From: Yinghuangia soli
GTDB lineage: Bacteria > Actinomycetota > Actinomycetes > Streptomycetales > Streptomycetaceae
Direction of reading: 5' to 3'
NCBI RefSeq assembly: GCF_021502675.1
Contig: NZ_JAKFHA010000003.1
Location: forward strand, 218,103-282,102
DNA length: 64,000 nucleotides
Part shown: one piece after another, positions 46,813 to 54,127 of the stretch
Layout of the letters: each line of letters begins with the position of its first letter
How positions within the stretch are numbered: position 1 is the stretch's first letter
The notes under the pieces: generated by a model
The model's database searches: none
Told to the model about the DNA's origin: nothing
The model's input: the letters and a program-made list of their open reading frames with translations, nothing else
Position numbers and translations under genes: made by a program

Positions 46813-47038
46813 TCCGATGAGGTACCCCGCACAAGAGATCGACCACGATCGACCCCACCGATGACCCCGGCAACGTCGGTGGCCACCGCAACCCCCTCGG
46901 CCTGGGATCCCTTTCGCGGACAACCTCCGGACAAGTTCAAAGGGACGTGTTCTGCACCGTCCGAAAGTCGGAGTGCTAACCCGGCATTGCCTGATTGTTA
47001 CCGGATTCCCCGATGGCCATGCGGAGCCTCGGATTCCG

Positions 47039-47068
47039 TTGTGGCCGTCGATCGAATCTGGGTATGTT
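47039..47068 (+). promoter_or_regulatory. Promoter of the organosulfur operon
   Basis: -35 TTGTGG (47039-47044) and -10 TATGTT (47063-47068) are 18 nt apart. Transcription should start near 47075, the first base of the leader-peptide GTG, implying a leaderless mRNA. The stretch 46813-47038 before it shows no gene. Confidence 0.6.
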
Positions 47069-47074
47069 CAGCGC

Positions 47075-47149
47075 GTGCCGAAGACTTTGCTGACCAACCG
47101 GACCCACGTGGACCTGTGTCGGGTCGGCAGCGCGCTCTGTCTGCGCTGA
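47075..47149 (+). CDS. Leader peptide of the organosulfur operon
   Basis: This is a 24-codon ORF (GTG start, TGA stop) encoding a peptide ending 'THVDLCRVGSALCLR'. The HVDLCRV-SALC core is the hallmark of the short leader peptides found upstream of actinobacterial sulfur-uptake and assimilation operons. The predicted transcription start coincides with the GTG, so it is probably translated as a leaderless ORF, as described for Cys-responsive mycobacterial attenuators. Two Cys codons (TGT) near the end would stall ribosomes when cysteine is scarce. The main operon begins 198 nt downstream. The role proposed is cis-acting attenuation rather than a functional peptide. Confidence 0.8.
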   Translation: MPKTLLTNRTHVDLCRVGSALCLR

Positions 47150-47254
47150 GCCTGTCTGCGCGGAGCGCACGGGCGGCTGCCGTCCGTCCGTCCGTCTGCC
47201 CGCCGCCCGCTGTCCGAAGCGGGCCGTCCAGCCGCTGAACTCCCCTTCCCTTTG

Positions 47255-47272
47255 CCCGCCGTGCCCGGCGGG
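47255..47272 (+). terminator. Candidate attenuator hairpin before the organosulfur operon
   Basis: CCCGCCG and CGGCGGG pair perfectly around a TGCC loop. A second small hairpin (GCCCGC/GCGGGC, 47205-47224) lies upstream. Both sit between the leader peptide and the first operon gene, where an attenuator is expected; neither has a U-tract, so Rho-dependent control is equally possible. Confidence 0.35.
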
Positions 47273-47347
47273 GTCACCCACGCGCGCCCTGACACGGGGC
47301 CGCTTTGCCGCGCCCGCGGCCCTTCCGTCCCCCGAGGAGATACCGCC

Positions 47348-48376
47348 ATGCCCACGACCACGCTGCGCCGGTTCCGACGCGCCGGAGCCGCCCTTGCCGC
47401 GGCCGCTCTCGCCTTCACCGCGGCTGCCTGCGGCGGGGACTCCGAGGCGGCGGACGGCAAGGGCGGCCGGACCGTCCTGAAGATCATCGACCCGGGGAAC
47501 GCCGGCGTGCTGGCCTATGCCAAGAAGACCGGCATCCTCGACAAGGAACTGGCCAAGGTCGACGCCCGCGTCGAATGGGGCGGCCACTACGCGTCGTTCA
47601 CCGCGGCGACCGACGCCATCCGGGCCGGGGCCATCAACGTGCAGAGCGGCGCCATCTCTCCGGCGCTGGGGTACTTGTCGTCCACTCCGGACATCAAGAT
47701 CTTCTCGTTCTCCGACCCGGTGACCGACCAGCGCGCGGGCGCGGGCGACGGACTGGTCGTCAAGCCGGACAGCCCGATCAAGTCCGTACAGGACTTGGTC
47801 GGCAAGAAGGTCGCGGTCAACCGGGCCGGGCACGGCGAGTACCTGTTGCTGCTGGCCCTCGAACAGGCCGGCGTCCCGGTCGACCGGGTCGAACGCGTGT
47901 ACATGCAGCCCGACCAGGCCGCCGGTGCCTTCGCGGCGGGCAAGGTGGACGCCTGGGTCGCCATCGTGGACGCCTTCCCCGAGGCGGTCGCGCAGGGCGC
48001 ACGCGTCGTCTTCCGCGGCCGGGACCTGCCGTCCGACGATCTCGGCATCACCGTCGCGTCGAACAAGCTCCTCGCCGAGAACCCCAAGGCCGTGCAGACC
48101 TATCTGAAGGTCGTCCAGGACCTCGTTGCCGAACAGCGGGCCAACCCCGAGAAGTTCCAGAACATCTTCGAGGACAAGGGCCCGCGCGCGGCGTCCGGTG
48201 AGCGGCTGAAGAACAACGTCGAGACCGCCCGCTACACCAACCCGCCGCGGCTCCCCAAGGCCGAGGACACCGCGAGCATCGAGAAGGTCGCCGCACTGTT
48301 CAAGAAGTACGGCGTGCTCCCCAACCCGGTGGATCCGGCCGCGGTGGTCTTCGACTGGACGAAGGTTCCGTCGTGA
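47348..48376 (+). CDS. Sulfonate-type ABC substrate-binding lipoprotein (SsuA/TauA-like)
   Basis: This 342-residue protein has a Sec signal ending in lipobox 'FTAAACGG' (Cys near residue 28), so it should be anchored outside the membrane. The body is the SsuA/TauA/ThiY-type binding fold: 'AYAKKTGILDKELAKVDARVEWG', 'SVQDLVGKKVAVNRAGHGEY', and 'GKVDAWVAIVDAFPEAVAQG'. GAGGAG lies 8 nt before the ATG. It is the first gene after the leader peptide and its stop overlaps the permease start. The cargo is probably an organosulfur compound, judged from the desulfinase and monooxygenases downstream; the exact ligand cannot be read from sequence. Confidence 0.88.
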   Translation: MPTTTLRRFRRAGAALAAAALAFTAAACGGDSEAADGKGGRTVLKIIDPGNAGVLAYAKKTGILDKELAKVDARVEWGGHYASFTAATDAIRAGAINVQSGAISPALGYLSSTPDIKIFSFSDPVTDQRAGAGDGLVVKPDSPIKSVQDLVGKKVAVNRAGHGEYLLLLALEQAGVPVDRVERVYMQPDQAAGAFAAGKVDAWVAIVDAFPEAVAQGARVVFRGRDLPSDDLGITVASNKLLAENPKAVQTYLKVVQDLVAEQRANPEKFQNIFEDKGPRAASGERLKNNVETARYTNPPRLPKAEDTASIEKVAALFKKYGVLPNPVDPAAVVFDWTKVPS

Positions 48377-49260
48377 GCGCGGTCGCCCCCGAGAAGGCCG
48401 TCGCGGCCCACGAACTCGAAGCTGCAGTAAGGGGTCCGGCCGATCAGGAGACGCATGGCCTGGTCACGCCCCAGTTCCTCGGATCCCGGCCGCGGAGCCG
48501 TGCCCTGTCGCTCGCGCTGCGCGCTGTCGTCCCGGCCGGGTTGCTGCTGCTGTGGTGGTGGCTGTCCGCATCGGGCCGCGTGGACCAAGCGGTGCTGGCC
48601 TCCCCCGGCTCCGTGCTCACCGCATTCCGCGAGCTGTGGGAGACCGGCCAACTCGCCGACTACACCGCGGCGTCCGCCAAGCGCGCCGGCCTGGGCGTGT
48701 TGTTCGGCGCCGGGGCCGGACTCGCCCTGGGGCTGCTGAGCGGGTTCTCCCGGCTCGGCGAGGAACTCATCGACACCACCATGCAGATGAAGCGCGTCGT
48801 GCCGTTCCTTGCGCTCGTTCCGTTGTTCATCTCGTGGTTCGGCGTCGACGAGACCTTCAAGGTCGTGCTGATCGCGGTGTCCGCGTCCGCGCCCATGTAC
48901 GCGTACACCTACCTGGGTGTGCGCGGCGTGGACCGCAAAGTCGTGGAAGCCGCACGGGGGTTCGGTCTCACCGGGCCGCGGCTCGCGCTCACCGTCGTGC
49001 TCCCCGGTGCGCTTCCGAACATCCTCATGGGGCTGCGGATCTCCCTCGGCATCAGCCTCACCGCGCTCATCGCCGCCGAGCAGGTCAGCACCACCGAGGG
49101 CATCGGGTACCTCGTCTCGTTGGCCCAGCAGTACTACCGGCCCGACTACATGGTGCTGTGCATCGTCTTGTACGCGCTGCTCGGCCTGGCCGTCGACTCC
49201 CTGATCCGCCTGGTGGAAAGGAAGGCCATGCCGTGGCGCAAGCACCTGACGCTCCGTTGA
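48373..49260 (+). CDS. Sulfonate-type ABC permease (SsuC-like)
   Basis: This is a 295-residue permease of the SsuC/TauC family. A cytoplasmic N-terminal segment precedes about six TM helices ('AVVPAGLLLLWWWLSASGRV', 'ALVPLFISWFG', 'IVLYALLGLAVDSLI'). The coupling loop is 'VVEAARGFGLTGPRLALTVVLP'. The GTG start overlaps the preceding stop (GTGA). The final 28 nt overlap the start of the ATPase gene, whose ribosome-binding site lies inside this gene. Confidence 0.9.
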   Translation: MSAVAPEKAVAAHELEAAVRGPADQETHGLVTPQFLGSRPRSRALSLALRAVVPAGLLLLWWWLSASGRVDQAVLASPGSVLTAFRELWETGQLADYTAASAKRAGLGVLFGAGAGLALGLLSGFSRLGEELIDTTMQMKRVVPFLALVPLFISWFGVDETFKVVLIAVSASAPMYAYTYLGVRGVDRKVVEAARGFGLTGPRLALTVVLPGALPNILMGLRISLGISLTALIAAEQVSTTEGIGYLVSLAQQYYRPDYMVLCIVLYALLGLAVDSLIRLVERKAMPWRKHLTLR

Positions 49261-50054
49261 CGGCGTCCGCCGCGTCCACGCCGGGGCGCCTCGCCGTGCG
49301 GCTGCGCGGCATCGGGAAGGCCTACCGCGTCAAGGACGGCGAGAAGCGGGTGCTCGACGGTGTCGATCTCGACATCCGGCCCGGCGAGTTCGTCGCGCTC
49401 CTCGGTCCCAGCGGCACCGGCAAGACCACTCTGCTGCGGCTGCTCGCCGGTTTGGAGAGCGCGGACACAGGCACGGTCCTCGTGCCCTCGCGCCGCACCA
49501 TCGTCTACCAGGAGCCGCGCCTGGTGCCGACGATGCGCGTGCTGCCCAACGTCACCCTCGGGCAGCGCCGCGGCGCCGCCACCCGCGAGGCCGGGCGTAC
49601 CGCGCTCGCCGAGGTAGGCCTCGCCGAGCATGAGCGGAGCTGGCCGGCCACGCTCTCCGGCGGCGAGGCCCAGCGCACCGCGCTCGCCCGAGCGCTCGTC
49701 CGCCAGCCCGAACTCCTGCTTCTCGACGAGCCGTTCGCGGCACTCGACGCGCTGACGCGGCTGCACATGCAGGACCTGGTGGGCGACCTGTACGCGCGGC
49801 ACCGGCCCGCGGTGCTGCTCGTCACCCATGACGTCGACGAAGCCGTCCGGCTCGCCGACCGGGTGGCGGTGCTCCGCGACGGCGTGTTCGCCGTCGACGT
49901 CCGCGTCGACCTGCCGCGGCCGCGCCGTACCGACGCTCCCGCGTTCATCGCGCTGCGCCGCGCGCTGCTGGCCGAGCTCGGCGTGCACGCCGACGAGCCG
50001 GCCGCTCCTCCTGCCGCCCCTGCTCCGTCCCGACCTGCCGAGGAGGCTTCATGA
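49233..50054 (+). CDS. Sulfonate-type ABC ATPase (SsuB-like)
   Basis: This 273-residue ATPase has Walker A GPSGTGKTT, signature LSGGEAQR, Walker B 'LLLLDEPFAALD' and the H-loop 'VLLVTHDVDEAVRLADRV', all intact. The GTG at 49233 was chosen: GGAAAGGAAGG lies about 8 nt upstream. This creates a 28-nt overlap with the permease gene, suggesting translational coupling. The C-terminal Pro/Ala tail is variable. It powers uptake through the upstream permease. Confidence 0.9.
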   Translation: MAQAPDAPLTASAASTPGRLAVRLRGIGKAYRVKDGEKRVLDGVDLDIRPGEFVALLGPSGTGKTTLLRLLAGLESADTGTVLVPSRRTIVYQEPRLVPTMRVLPNVTLGQRRGAATREAGRTALAEVGLAEHERSWPATLSGGEAQRTALARALVRQPELLLLDEPFAALDALTRLHMQDLVGDLYARHRPAVLLVTHDVDEAVRLADRVAVLRDGVFAVDVRVDLPRPRRTDAPAFIALRRALLAELGVHADEPAAPPAAPAPSRPAEEAS

Positions 50055-51118
50055 CTCCCCCTGCCGCACCCGACACGATCTGGTACACCCGCTGCCCGGT
50101 TCCCACCGCCAGCGGCCTCGCCCTGCACCGCGGCACGCTTGCCGCCGAGTTCGCCCGGCACGGACTCGGGTTCGGGGTCCTCCAGGACGGCCCGCCGGAG
50201 CTCGCCCGGCACCACTTCGACCACGGACTCGTCGGCCTGTTCCGCGAAGGCGGCAACGTCCCCGCGCTCGCCGCCCGCTCCGAAGGCGCCCGGACCCGCC
50301 TGATCGGACTCACCTGGATCGACGAATGGCAGTCGATCCTGGTCCACCCCGACTCCGGCATCACCAGTGCCGCCGATCTCGCGGGCGCCCGCATCGCCCT
50401 CCCCGCCTGGGCGGACTCGCGCGCCGGGAGCTTCCCGCGTGCCATGGCCCTGCATGGCTTCGCGGGGGCGCTGGCCACCGCCGGACTCGGCCTCGCCGAC
50501 GTACGGTTCGTCGAGGTCGCCGGCGGCGGCCAGAGCGGCCCCGCGGAGCGGCGGTGGCCCGCCCGTACCGGCATCGACGCCGCCTGGCCCGGCCTCGACG
50601 CGCTCGCCGCGGGCGAGGTCGACGCCGTCTACGTGAAGGGCGCCCGGTCCGCCGAGGACGCTGCCCGCATCGGTGCGGTCGTCGCCGTCGACCTCGACGC
50701 GGGCGCCGACCGCCGCTTCCGGGTCAACAACGGCACGCCGCGCCCGATCACCGTGCACGAGGACCTGCTCACCGAACACGAGGACCTCGTCGTACGGTTC
50801 CTGGTGCAGACGCTGCGCGCCGCGGACTGGGCGGCCGGGAATCCGGACGAAGTCCGCGCGATCCTGGCCGCCGAGACCCGCTCCGGCAGCGCCGGAGTCG
50901 ACCGTGCCTATCGCGAGGGGTTCCACACCGCGCTGCATCCGGACCTTTCCGACGAGCGCCGCGAACTCCTGGGCATCCAGAAGGACTTCCTGCTCGTCCA
51001 CGGATTCCTCGCGGCCGACATCGATCTCGGCGCCTGGACGGCGGACGAACCGCTCGCCCGCGCGCAGGAGATCGTCGCCGCGGAGCAGGCCGAGGACAGC
51101 GCGGGGGTGCCGGCGTGA
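50051..51118 (+). CDS. DszB-like sulfinate desulfinase
   Basis: This 355-residue protein has the periplasmic-binding-like fold but no signal peptide, so it is cytoplasmic. It resembles 2'-hydroxybiphenyl-2-sulfinate desulfinase DszB: the start 'IWYTRCPVPTASG' matches the DszB segment carrying the nucleophilic Cys27 (NCPVPN), 'RHHFDHGLVGLFREGGNVPAL' matches the region of His60 and Arg70 (RxGGxxP), and 'DSGITSAADLAGARIAL' matches 'DSPITAAADLAGRRI'. All three catalytic positions seem kept. Length fits DszB (about 365). The reaction would be hydrolysis of a C-SO2H compound to sulfite and a desulfurised product. ATGA overlap with the ATPase gene and GTGA overlap with the monooxygenase gene place it in one operon. 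A binding-protein role cannot be excluded, but the conserved Cys argues for an enzyme. Confidence 0.75.
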   Translation: MTPPAAPDTIWYTRCPVPTASGLALHRGTLAAEFARHGLGFGVLQDGPPELARHHFDHGLVGLFREGGNVPALAARSEGARTRLIGLTWIDEWQSILVHPDSGITSAADLAGARIALPAWADSRAGSFPRAMALHGFAGALATAGLGLADVRFVEVAGGGQSGPAERRWPARTGIDAAWPGLDALAAGEVDAVYVKGARSAEDAARIGAVVAVDLDAGADRRFRVNNGTPRPITVHEDLLTEHEDLVVRFLVQTLRAADWAAGNPDEVRAILAAETRSGSAGVDRAYREGFHTALHPDLSDERRELLGIQKDFLLVHGFLAADIDLGAWTADEPLARAQEIVAAEQAEDSAGVPA

Positions 51119-52143
51119 GCCGACTGCCTGCCGCCTTCCACTGGACCGTGCCGGTGCGCGGCGACGGCCGCGAGGCGGACCCGGGGCGCCGGCCGCGCGG
51201 CGGCTGGAATCCCGGCGCGCGACGCGAATTCCGGCCGGTGTTCACCGACCCGCGCCCGGGGAACGTCGGTCCGTTCGACCACCTTTCCGCGATCGGCAGG
51301 GCCGCCGACGTCGCCGGGTTCGACGGCGTCACTGTGCCGTTCGACCCGGATGGCGAGGACTCGTGGATCACCGCGGGCACACTGCTGCGCGAAACCCTGT
51401 GGCTGCGCGTCGGGGTCGAGTTCCCTCCGGCGTTCGCCACTCCGGTCTACGCCGCCAAGCTGTCGGTGTCGCTTCAGCGCTTCACCGGCGCGCGCCTCGA
51501 CTGGCACCTCGCCGTGGACATCGACCCGGCCCGCCGGCGCGCCCTCGGCGACCATGTCGACGGCGACGACCGCTACGCCCGCGCCGACGAGTTCCTCACC
51601 GTGGCCCGCGGCGTCTGGCACGAGAAGGAGTTCACCTACGAAGGACGCTTCCACCACGTGCTGGAGGGCGGGTTCTTCGGCCCGCTGTCCGGCGTCCCGT
51701 TCCCGCGCGTCCACCTGACGGGCACCGGCGACGCCGCCCTCGCACTGTCCGCCCGGCATGCCGACGTGCACGTCTTCGGGCTGGACGACGACCTGGCCGA
51801 GCACACCGACCGCCTGCGCCAGGCCGGCCGCGAGCGCGGCACCGACATCGCCCTCGGCCTGCGCGTACCCGTCCTGGCCCGCGCCGACGCCGCCGAGGCG
51901 GCCGACGACCTGGCGCGCCACCAAGCCGAAGCAGGCCGCGCGGCCGGCCCCGGGGCCGAACCGACCGGGCTCGTCGGCTCCTACGACGACATCGCCGCGC
52001 GCCTCGCCGAGTACCGCGACGCGTACGGCATCACGCAGTTCTTCCTCGCCGCTCACCCCGCCGTCGAAGAGGCATACCGCATCGGCGAACACCTCCTGCC
52101 GCGCCTGCACGCGGCCCGCACACCCGCGGAGGCGTCCCTGTGA
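51115..52143 (+). CDS. LLM-class FMN-dependent monooxygenase 1
   Basis: This 342-residue enzyme is of the bacterial luciferase-like family that includes SsuD, DszA and NtaA. It has 'HLSAIGRAADVAGFDGVTVPFD', 'LDWHLAVDIDP', and 'HVDGDDRYARADEFLTVARGVW', which matches the 'RYxRxxEF' phosphate/substrate region of SsuD-like proteins. It is shorter than SsuD (about 380). Such enzymes use FMNH2 and O2 from a separate reductase, and no flavin reductase is present in this operon. Start GTG overlaps the preceding stop (GTGA). It may oxidise a sulfone or sulfonate to feed the DszB-like desulfinase; the substrate is unknown. Confidence 0.85.
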   Translation: MSRLPAAFHWTVPVRGDGREADPGRRPRGGWNPGARREFRPVFTDPRPGNVGPFDHLSAIGRAADVAGFDGVTVPFDPDGEDSWITAGTLLRETLWLRVGVEFPPAFATPVYAAKLSVSLQRFTGARLDWHLAVDIDPARRRALGDHVDGDDRYARADEFLTVARGVWHEKEFTYEGRFHHVLEGGFFGPLSGVPFPRVHLTGTGDAALALSARHADVHVFGLDDDLAEHTDRLRQAGRERGTDIALGLRVPVLARADAAEAADDLARHQAEAGRAAGPGAEPTGLVGSYDDIAARLAEYRDAYGITQFFLAAHPAVEEAYRIGEHLLPRLHAARTPAEASL

Positions 52144-53318
52144 CCATCGACATCTACTGGCGCATCGGCATGGGCGGCGACAAGGAGTCGCTGCGGCATC
52201 CCGACAAGACCCGCGGCGACTGGGACCGGGTACGGCCCGGCAGCATCGCGCCGGGCCTGCGCCGCGGCTCACCGGACGGGTTCACCTACCTCGACCACAT
52301 GGCCGACGTGGCCCGTGCCGCCGAGCAGGCGGGCTTCTACGGCGGCCTGCTGCCGTCCTTCCCGATGACCGACGACCCGTGGGCCGCAGCTGCGGCGCTG
52401 GCGCGCGAGACCCGCACCTGGCGGTTCATGATCGCGTTCCAGCCCGGTTTCCTGAATCCCGTGCACGCCGCCCGGATGTCGGCCTCGCTGCAACGCGCCA
52501 CCGGCGGCCGCACCGTCTTCAACGTCATCACCGGCGGCGGTGGGCCCGCGCAATTGTGGTGGGGCGACAAGGTCGCGCACGACGACCGCTACGCCCGCAC
52601 GTCCGAATTCCTCGACGTGCTGCGCGGCGTATGGAACGGCGGCCCGTTCGACTTCGACGGACGCTTCTACCGCGTCGAAGGCGGCGGCCTGCCTGCCGCG
52701 CTCGCCGCCGAGCCCTTCCCCGAGATCTACTTCTCCGGCTCGTCCCCCGCCGCCATCGACGCCGCCGGACGGCATGCCGACTACTACCTGTCCTGGCTGG
52801 AGCCCTTCGACCAGCTCAAGCAGAAGTTCGATGCGGTACGCGAGCACAGCGCCCGCACCGGCACACCCCCGCCCAAGTTCGCGGTACGCGTCGACGTCCT
52901 CGCCCGCGAGACCGAGGAAGCCGCCTGGCGCGAGATCCGCCGCGGCTGGGACCACGTCGACCCCGCCGCCGCGGACGGATTCCTCCGCCGCCAAGGCGAC
53001 TCGGTCGGCGCCCAGCGCACCGGCGACTTCCTCTCCGGCGCCACCCTCCACGACCCGGCGGGACTCACCGTCTCCCCCGGCGTGTGGGGCGGTTTCAGCC
53101 TGCTGCGCCCGGGGCCGGCATTCGGCCTGGTCGGCAGCTACCAGCATGTCGCCGAACGGCTCGACGAACTGATCGGCCTGGGCGTCGACGCGTTCATCCT
53201 CGCAGCCACCCCGCACCTCGAAGAGGCGTACCGGGTCGGCGAAGAAGTCCTGCCGCTGCTGCGCGGCCCGCACGAACTCACCGCACCGGAAAGCCCGGCG
53301 GAACTGTCCGCGGTCTGA
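52140..53318 (+). CDS. LLM-class FMN-dependent monooxygenase 2 (SsuD-like)
   Basis: This is a 392-residue luciferase-like monooxygenase, close to SsuD in length and motifs: 'YLDHMADVARAAEQAGFYGGLLP', 'FMIAFQPGFLNPVHAARMSASL', 'FNVITGGG', 'DRYARTSEFLDVLRGVWNG', and 'PEIYFSGSSPAAIDAAGRHADYYLSW'. SsuD-type enzymes convert sulfonates to aldehyde plus sulfite with FMNH2. The GTG start overlaps the preceding stop (52140-52143). Having two divergent LLM enzymes side by side suggests two successive oxidations or two substrate classes. Confidence 0.87.
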   Translation: MTIDIYWRIGMGGDKESLRHPDKTRGDWDRVRPGSIAPGLRRGSPDGFTYLDHMADVARAAEQAGFYGGLLPSFPMTDDPWAAAAALARETRTWRFMIAFQPGFLNPVHAARMSASLQRATGGRTVFNVITGGGGPAQLWWGDKVAHDDRYARTSEFLDVLRGVWNGGPFDFDGRFYRVEGGGLPAALAAEPFPEIYFSGSSPAAIDAAGRHADYYLSWLEPFDQLKQKFDAVREHSARTGTPPPKFAVRVDVLARETEEAAWREIRRGWDHVDPAAADGFLRRQGDSVGAQRTGDFLSGATLHDPAGLTVSPGVWGGFSLLRPGPAFGLVGSYQHVAERLDELIGLGVDAFILAATPHLEEAYRVGEEVLPLLRGPHELTAPESPAELSAV

Positions 53319-53362: not shown

Positions 53363-54127
53363 ATGACCACCAGCCTGGACACCGCCCCCACCTCCGACGC
53401 TCCCGCCCCCATCGCCGGAGAACTCTCGGCCGACGTCCTGGAATTCGTCGCCACCGCGAAGGAACAGGCCGAACACGCCTTCCGTGTGCTCCGCCAGATC
53501 GGCAGCATCACCGCCAACGGCACCGTGAGCGGCGTCGAACGCGTGCCCGGCCACGACCTCTACCTGACACTCACGTACCCGGGCCCGTTCGCGGTCGACC
53601 AGACCGTCACCCCGTCCGTCGTCGGCCTCGACGGCACCGTCCACCTCGGGGACGCCAATGCCGCACGCGGCTTCGGCTTCCACCGGGTGCTGTCCGCCCA
53701 CCCGGACATCACCACCGTCATCCACGTGCACTCCCCGTACCTGGGAGCCTGGTCGCAGACCCACCGGCCGCTGCCCATCCGGTACGTTCCCGTGCAGCGC
53801 GACACCCTCGCGCGCGAGATCCCCGTCTACATCGACCGGCGCGGCTCGCAGGTCGACTTCATCCTCGACCGCCTCGCCGAGGAGATCCCCCCGCCCGCGA
53901 TCCTCGAGGCCAACGGCGGCGCCACCGTCTGGGGCAGCGGCGGCTTCCTGGCCACTGTCGAGTACATCGTCCTGCTCGAAGAGGGCGCCCAGCTCCAACT
54001 GCTCGCGGAATCCCTGGGCGGCTCGCAAGAGTACGGCCCCGGCGTGCTGCGCGAGCAGTGGACGCGGTTCAACGGCGGCGCCCTCGGCAAGCGCGCCGAA
54101 GCACTGGGCCTGCTGCCGACCGAGTAG
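53363..54127 (+). CDS. Class II aldolase/adducin-family protein
   Basis: This 254-residue protein has the class II aldolase/adducin fold, with the metal-binding 'VIHVHSPYLGAW' (HxH), and 'ILEANGGATVWGSGG' in the position of the usual 'xxxxHG' segment. The ATG at 53363 follows AAAGG by 8 nt. The gap of 44 nt to the monooxygenase is the only break in the operon, which otherwise has overlaps. Family members cleave or rearrange phosphorylated sugars or hydroxy-carbonyls with a divalent metal. Here it may act on the carbonyl product left after C-S cleavage. A terminator follows at once, so it is the last gene. Confidence 0.8.
   Translation: MTTSLDTAPTSDAPAPIAGELSADVLEFVATAKEQAEHAFRVLRQIGSITANGTVSGVERVPGHDLYLTLTYPGPFAVDQTVTPSVVGLDGTVHLGDANAARGFGFHRVLSAHPDITTVIHVHSPYLGAWSQTHRPLPIRYVPVQRDTLAREIPVYIDRRGSQVDFILDRLAEEIPPPAILEANGGATVWGSGGFLATVEYIVLLEEGAQLQLLAESLGGSQEYGPGVLREQWTRFNGGALGKRAEALGLLPTE

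Follow-up and report, generated by a model that had tools for sequence, protein, structure and literature searches.

The 24-codon reading frame at 47075-47149, on the plus strand of the window (the whole 64,000-nucleotide stretch of Yinghuangia soli DNA that was analysed), is probably, if with only modest assurance, a cis-acting and leaderless member of the actinomycete NF042934 leader-peptide family that sets the expression of a sulfonate operon according to cysteine supply, perhaps via Rho. This reading is built on the anatomy of the leader, its family membership, its leaderless spacing, a codon lock and the C-rich spacers that follow such leaders, all of which are documented here. The leader-peptide system is already known; the codon lock, by which the cysteine nine residues past a conserved aspartate (position D+9) is written as UGU, may be new.

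The frame opens with GTG at 47075-47077, closes with TGA at 47147-47149 and encodes the 24-residue peptide VPKTLLTNRTHVDLCRVGSALCLR, with the core HVDLCRVGSALC. The -10 hexamer TATGTT (47063-47068), a TAnnnT at a spacing that recurs across the family, is separated from the GTG by the six nucleotides CAGCGC (47069-47074), exactly as an earlier note on this DNA had counted them. A weak candidate -35 hexamer, TTGTGG, lies at 47039-47044 with an 18-nt spacer to TATGTT. No AGGAG-like Shine-Dalgarno (SD) sequence was found upstream of the GTG, and the 5' end of the mRNA is predicted to lie at 47075 itself. The note had also pointed to two TGT cysteine codons. Both are present, at 47117-47119 (Cys15, position D+2) and 47138-47140 (Cys22, position D+9), but only the second, the proposed sensor codon, is conserved.

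An orthologous leader is found in a sister genome (G002), whose substrate-binding protein (SBP), the product of the first operon gene, is 84% identical to that of the window. The two leader frames align without gaps over 24 codons and the stop, yet are identical at only 44 of 75 nucleotides. The G002 leader starts with ATG, 6 nt past TATGGT, with TTGTCG as the counterpart of the candidate -35 a further 17 nt upstream of that hexamer. It keeps L6, T7, D13, L14, R16, G18, A20, Cys22 (again TGT) and R24, while Cys15 is replaced by Gly (GGC). By blastn, extended similarity between the window and G002 begins only at the SBP start, with none found upstream of the gene, and the leader-to-gene spacer is 68 nt in G002 against 198 nt in the window. 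A third genome of the genus gave no match to the SBP.

Leaderless translation, which the note had suggested for this leader, has strong indirect support from a comparison of RTG and TAnnnT spacing across leaders, and on the same evidence the architecture appears to be a trait of the leader family. An in-frame RTG stands 5-8 nt past TAnnnT in 69 of 120 leaders from the window's taxonomic family and in 61 of 103 leaders from other families; the out-of-frame figures are 5/288 and 4/185, respectively. Among the 120, the in-frame distance is 6 nt in 48 cases and 7 nt in 20, no other distance in the 2-15 nt range being seen more than twice, and out-of-frame RTGs at 6 and 7 nt number 0 and 2. For the 103, 9 in-frame RTGs lie at 6 nt, 44 at 7 nt and 8 at 8 nt, the out-of-frame counts being 2, 0 and 1. 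In S. lividans the distance from the -10 to the transcription start is given as 6.3 nt on average (range 4-9), and 17% of transcripts were counted as leaderless (PMC8079986). A strict TAnnnT at leaderless spacing is absent from 51 of the 120 leaders; among these are leaders with a variant -10 and others with an SD-like start, so the trait is common rather than universal. Leaders of the sulfite reductase group (L069-L072, L074-L077, L079, L081 and L083) carry an inverted repeat, GTCCA...TGGAC, within the 110 nt before the core, which is likely to be a regulator site.

Against the NCBIfam profile NF042934 ('putative leader peptide', cis_reg_atten), the window peptide scores 33.7 bits (curated cut-off 27). 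The match covers the full model, positions 1-19, with Cys22 at the last model position, and the frame is, like others of the leader family, a short ORF directly upstream of sulfur genes. Its own genome holds at least six sites above the cut-off, the window's included. The profile matches each of the 61 genomes sampled from the window's family at E <= 1e-4 and 199 of 296 genomes of the class at E <= 0.001 (177 above the cut-off), the matching class genomes spanning 80 of 115 genera; in a sparser sample across the phylum, 12 of 198 matched at E <= 1e-4. The family set comprises 138 loci (L001-L012, L020-L034, L036 and L065-L174), all obtained with NF042934 apart from L036, which came from the SBP search; weak matches in the window's own genome (L013-L019, E 0.29 to 9) were excluded. 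A motif expression missed 18 of the 138 (seven have TGT and three TAG at D+9, and eight were unlocated), leaving the 120 leaders used above. The 103 leaders of other families are the 109 loci of the class set less the unlocated L203 and five from the window's family; L178, L179 and L181-L196, as members of the window's family, did not enter the counts.

Several individual loci deserve mention. On contig C20 of the window's own genome, three further leader-like ORFs below the cut-off (L010, L011 and L012, about 60.8-65.0 kb) are clustered in a span of about 4 kb. On a plasmid of Streptomyces sp. SAT1, the annotated 43-residue 'hypothetical protein' at L302:22138-22269 is a leader of the NF042934 type, HIDLARVTSASC, with TGT at D+9, an SD-like start and a similar ABC/LLM operon downstream. 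The leader on L370, a contig filed under Candidatus Melainabacteria, is of the actinomycete type, has TGC at D+9 and closely resembles in sequence L264 from a different genome; the contig is perhaps misbinned.

The organosulfur operon to which the note had attached the leader is indeed there, encoding an SsuA/SsuC/SsuB-like transporter and two SsuD-like flavin monooxygenases. All of its genes lie on the plus strand. Behind a GAGGAG SD sequence (47334-47339) comes the SsuA-like sulfonate ABC transporter SBP (47348-48376; NMT1 domain; TIGR01728 at 144.4 bits, below its cut-off of 163.5). It is followed by an SsuC-like permease (48373-49260), an SsuB-like ATPase with an uncertain start codon (49257-50054), an NMT1/SsuA-like protein (50051-51118), two SsuD-like LLM flavin monooxygenases (51115-52143 and 52140-53318) and a class II aldolase/adducin-family protein (53363-54127). 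For the permease, the ATPase and both monooxygenases the best NCBIfam model falls below its cut-off; the NMT1/SsuA-like product we take to resemble a desulfinase (DszB). A search with the SBP for named relatives of the operon found none. Across the window's family, 61 of the 297 genomes hold relatives of the SBP itself at E <= 1e-30. A motif search limited to the 1500 nt upstream, which would miss more distant leaders, located a leader at 8 of 30 such loci, the window's and that of G002 included. Elsewhere in the window, five matches to the Rfam family ASpks (RF01782; 5985-6059, 9426-9500, 14805-14879, 19817-19891 and 24485-24559) are probably conserved polyketide synthase coding sequence rather than RNA genes.

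The first genes behind the family leaders mostly belong to protein groups with a part in sulfur metabolism and can be read, from their sequence assignments, as a sulfur regulon. A first downstream gene was picked mechanically by codon bias, so that some picks may be second genes, for 118 of the 120 leaders, the other two showing no downstream gene with clear codon bias: ThiS in 26 cases, sulfite reductase in 20, LLM in 20, PALP in 15 and rhodanese in 11, with smaller groups making up the rest.

The unexpected feature of these leaders is the codon used at D+9. Among the matches listed, 281 distinct leaders have TGT as the Cys codon at this position and four have TGC, out of 285; the 285 come from pooling the family, class and named-genome sets and removing duplicates over a 57-base stretch, and they do not include the three leaders with TAG or those that were unlocated. 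The leaders sampled span 24 families, as counted from their labels. TGT is found at D+9 in all 110 distinct leaders of the window's family, in 102 of 103 from other families and, where the locus has at least 65% GC (n=86 in the class set), in 85 cases against one of TGC. A pattern allowing either codon found at least 119 stretches in named genomes, with 116 TGT and 3 TGC among the matches listed. The background frequency of TGT is low, 32 of 347 Cys codons (9%) in the annotated genes of one Streptomyces plasmid. Within single frames the two Cys positions differ: the 126 leaders with Cys at both D+2 and D+9 all have TGT at D+9, whereas D+2 is TGC in 115 and TGT in 11, and the reverse arrangement to those 115 does not occur. 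The NF042934 profile reads residues only and is blind to synonymous codons, so the lock, being invisible to it, cannot be an artefact of the search.

Neighbouring Cys codons follow the rule less closely. TGC and TGT number 38 and 11 at D+7, 12 and 1 at D+8, 4 and 12 at D+10, and 8 and 10 at D+11 in the class set, and 11 and 1 at D+7 and 8 and 2 at D+10 in the family set. The class-set counts at D+10 and D+11 indicate that TGT is favoured just past D+9 in poly-Cys tracts too. Thus D+9 is the strongest but not the sole TGT-biased position, and it alone is nearly fixed. The base after the D+9 TGT is C in 198, T in 50, A in 26 and G in 7 of the 281 distinct leaders among the matches listed. No mention of a UGU bias in NF042934-type leaders was found in the literature searched, and an earlier report is possible.

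UGU is the codon that tRNA-Cys(GCA) reads by G-U wobble. One tRNA-Cys gene, with anticodon GCA, was found in the window's own genome (contig C88; the four Cys rows there are overlapping loci), and no second tRNA-Cys reading UGU was found among 54 tRNA matches (49 loci or stretches) in this draft assembly, which is 96% complete. In three of the 138 family loci (L011, L030 and L141) the D+9 codon is TAG, although the peptide ahead of it is intact; L011 and L030 are from two species of the window's genus, each with the TAG near position 1546 on the reverse strand, and in L141 it lies near 385. If these variants are functional, what the site requires would be slowness in the A site rather than Cys itself; they are the observation least well explained by a Cys-tRNA sensor.

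The 198-nt spacer between the leader and the SBP gene (47150-47347) is C-rich, and from its base composition is a candidate Rho loading region. Over 47150-47340 the fractions of C and G are 0.455 and 0.325; C minus G is 0.141 for the whole spacer and 0.075 for its first 80 nt, which are strongly folded (-41.3). The bias is stronger in the family: in the 80 nt past the stop of the 120 leaders, C minus G averages 0.193 and C exceeds G in 97.5%, compared with 0.043 and 58.1% in 74 upstream regions and 0.039 and 62.5% in 64 post-stop regions, these controls all being from one Streptomyces plasmid (p 1.6e-15 and 2.5e-16, uncorrected for kinship among the leaders). The corresponding fractions past the leader stops in the class set are 0.415 for C and 0.281 for G. 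The spacers are no less folded than 5' controls (mean MFE -28.4 vs -29.1). No intrinsic terminator was found between the leader and the first gene, there being no terminator-like site in 46900-47400.

A conserved RNA structure as a common device was considered and rejected. In RNAalifold alignments of the sulfite reductase (n=21), rhodanese (n=11) and ThiS (n=22) subfamilies, with spacers of 84 to 313 nt and pair types counted as a check on covariation, the stems within the leader-coding part differ by subfamily, and those of the spacer are short and weak (4 pairs for sulfite reductase, 5 and 4 for rhodanese, none for ThiS).

In the mechanism that we favour, transcription would begin at or beside the GTG at 47075 and a 70S ribosome would initiate on the bare 5' end. 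With codon 22 (UGU) in the A site, the conserved segment LLTNRTHVDLCRVGSAL would lie inside the exit tunnel, and decoding would be slow because tRNA-Cys(GCA) reads UGU only via wobble. When Cys-tRNA is scarce, the ribosome would park at UGU22 and cover the start of the C-rich spacer, so that RNA polymerase proceeds into the operon. When Cys-tRNA is plentiful, the ribosome would finish at the UGA at 47147, and the naked spacer would let Rho stop transcription. Stalling, the Cys-tRNA signal and the Rho step are what we infer, and the Rho step is the weakest link.

The main alternative for the read-out is translational attenuation, in which the stalled ribosome prevents an mRNA structure from hiding the SD of the first gene. 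The related mycobacterial leaders speak for it: a study of the poly-Cys ORFs of M. smegmatis reportedly found an unmasked ribosome binding site and not Rho, a precedent that, together with the kinship of the leaders and the indirectness of C-richness as evidence, weighs against a Rho-linked model. The window leader shares a profile family with Ms5788A-type leaders, and cysteine genes of M. smegmatis are described as being under translation attenuation (PMC13236596). The SD is moreover mostly base-paired when the mRNA is free (mean unpaired 0.213), as judged on the 89 of the 120 family leaders that offer a usable gene start, an SD and a spacer of 40-320 nt; in at least 21 of the 22 ThiS sequences, the SD region pairs with the start of the gene. 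However, that ThiS stem is confined to the gene start, with the leader taking no part in it, and masking the footprint of a stalled ribosome barely alters SD pairing: the unpaired value rises from 0.213 to 0.237, against 0.232 with a mid-spacer control mask, and a gain above 0.2 is seen in 8 of 89 leaders with the stall mask and 4 of 89 with the control. For the window the change is from 0.173 to 0.215 with the automatically chosen SD and from 0.286 to 0.290 with CGAGGA (47333-47338). The folding thus gives barely more release than a control mask, and we regard SD unmasking as unlikely, ranking it behind Rho as the read-out without strong confidence.

Other readings concern what the leader senses, or whether it is translated at all. 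TnaC of the E. coli tna operon stalls at its stop codon with tryptophan, and a similar arrest peptide, in which the nascent chain and a sulfur metabolite rather than Cys-tRNA charging stall the ribosome at D+9, would account for the conservation across operons of some 16 residues before the Cys, which exceeds the need of hungry codons; the three TAG leaders recall stop-codon arrest. But profile- and motif-based sampling is biased toward conserved residues, and the Cys at D+9 in almost every leader sampled and the poly-Cys extensions of some leaders point to Cys-tRNA, making this explanation improbable. Slightly less credit still is given to the idea that the TGT lock is an RNA-level element, UGUH, serving as a binding, pairing or cleavage site and not in decoding. 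The rarity of a following G, and a predicted intra-leader stem of the rhodanese subfamily that includes the last two UGU bases, are consistent with such an element, but the consensus structures for sulfite reductase and ThiS leave the UGU unpaired, the flanking bases are variable except for the missing G, and TAG can substitute. That the frame is a chance ORF, untranslated and lying behind a promoter for a leadered operon mRNA, is very improbable: a strict sigma-70 scan of 46900-47400 did return no promoters, but the NF042934 match, the in-frame ortholog in diverged DNA and the RTG spacing statistics all argue against it.

Returning to a Cys-tRNA sensor, the codon lock may extend the proposal to a class-wide device, which we put forward tentatively, at somewhat short of even chances. 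Across the Actinomycetes, one Cys codon fixed as UGU and followed by a non-G base would be the sensor by virtue of wobble decoding by the only tRNA-Cys, its position would be set by the nascent chain, and a UGC there would sense next to nothing; on this view the poly-Cys ORFs of mycobacteria would be lengthened forms of one ancestral single-codon sensor. With at least six leaders above the cut-off in one genome, ribosomes may read cysteine supply at several operons, possibly without a regulator protein. The single synonymous change from UGU to UGC offers a probe of codon identity versus amino acid in the sensitivity of an attenuator, and the lock can serve as a codon-level filter by which genuine leaders in GC-rich genomes are set apart from chance ORFs.

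The window leader belongs to a known kind, that of the mycobacterial Cys-rich leaderless ORFs. Canestrari et al. (2020) reportedly found that mycobacterial poly-cysteine leaderless ORFs respond to cysteine. Those described by the Ms5788A (NF042933) and Ms4527A (NF042936) models have an RRAVDLCRV-type core in common with the window leader. Three poly-Cys leaders of one genus, with the core LTKRRAVDLCR[VI]AG, exceed the cut-offs of both the Ms5788A model (47.3, 58.9 and 54.9; cut-off 45) and NF042934, so that a single profile takes in both the mycobacterial type and that of the window; like the window leader, these three carry TGT at D+9. To this extent the mycobacterial link drawn in the earlier note stands. 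It does not extend to the window peptide as a poly-Cys ORF: its two cysteines are separated, no run of adjacent Cys codons is present, and its scores against NF042933 and NF042936 (24.9 and 18.9) are both below the cut-off of 45. Small leaderless Cys-rich ORFs have been described in mycobacteria ahead of cysA2 and other genes (PMC4633059).

Cys leader peptides were predicted in Actinobacteria by Seliverstov in 2005, with Rho suggested as the effector (PMC1262725). Like the window's, they lie ahead of cys genes with no obvious terminator as there described; they differ in having runs of Cys codons near the stop and in coming from Mycobacterium, Propionibacterium acnes and Bifidobacterium longum (PMC1262725). 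The candidate cysS attenuator of Rhodobacterales, uORFC-8-2, is also a short ORF with conserved Cys codons before a cysteine gene, but its Cys codons are in tandem, UGC is dominant and an intrinsic terminator stem is present (PMC8632094); its use of mostly UGC indicates that UGU is not generally required by Cys attenuators. A comparison of Cys leaders with tna has already been drawn (PMC1262725). The proposed logic of the window leader resembles that of TnaC, in that a stalled ribosome would shield a Rho site past the leader, with the difference that the proposed stall site is a Cys codon and not the stop codon.
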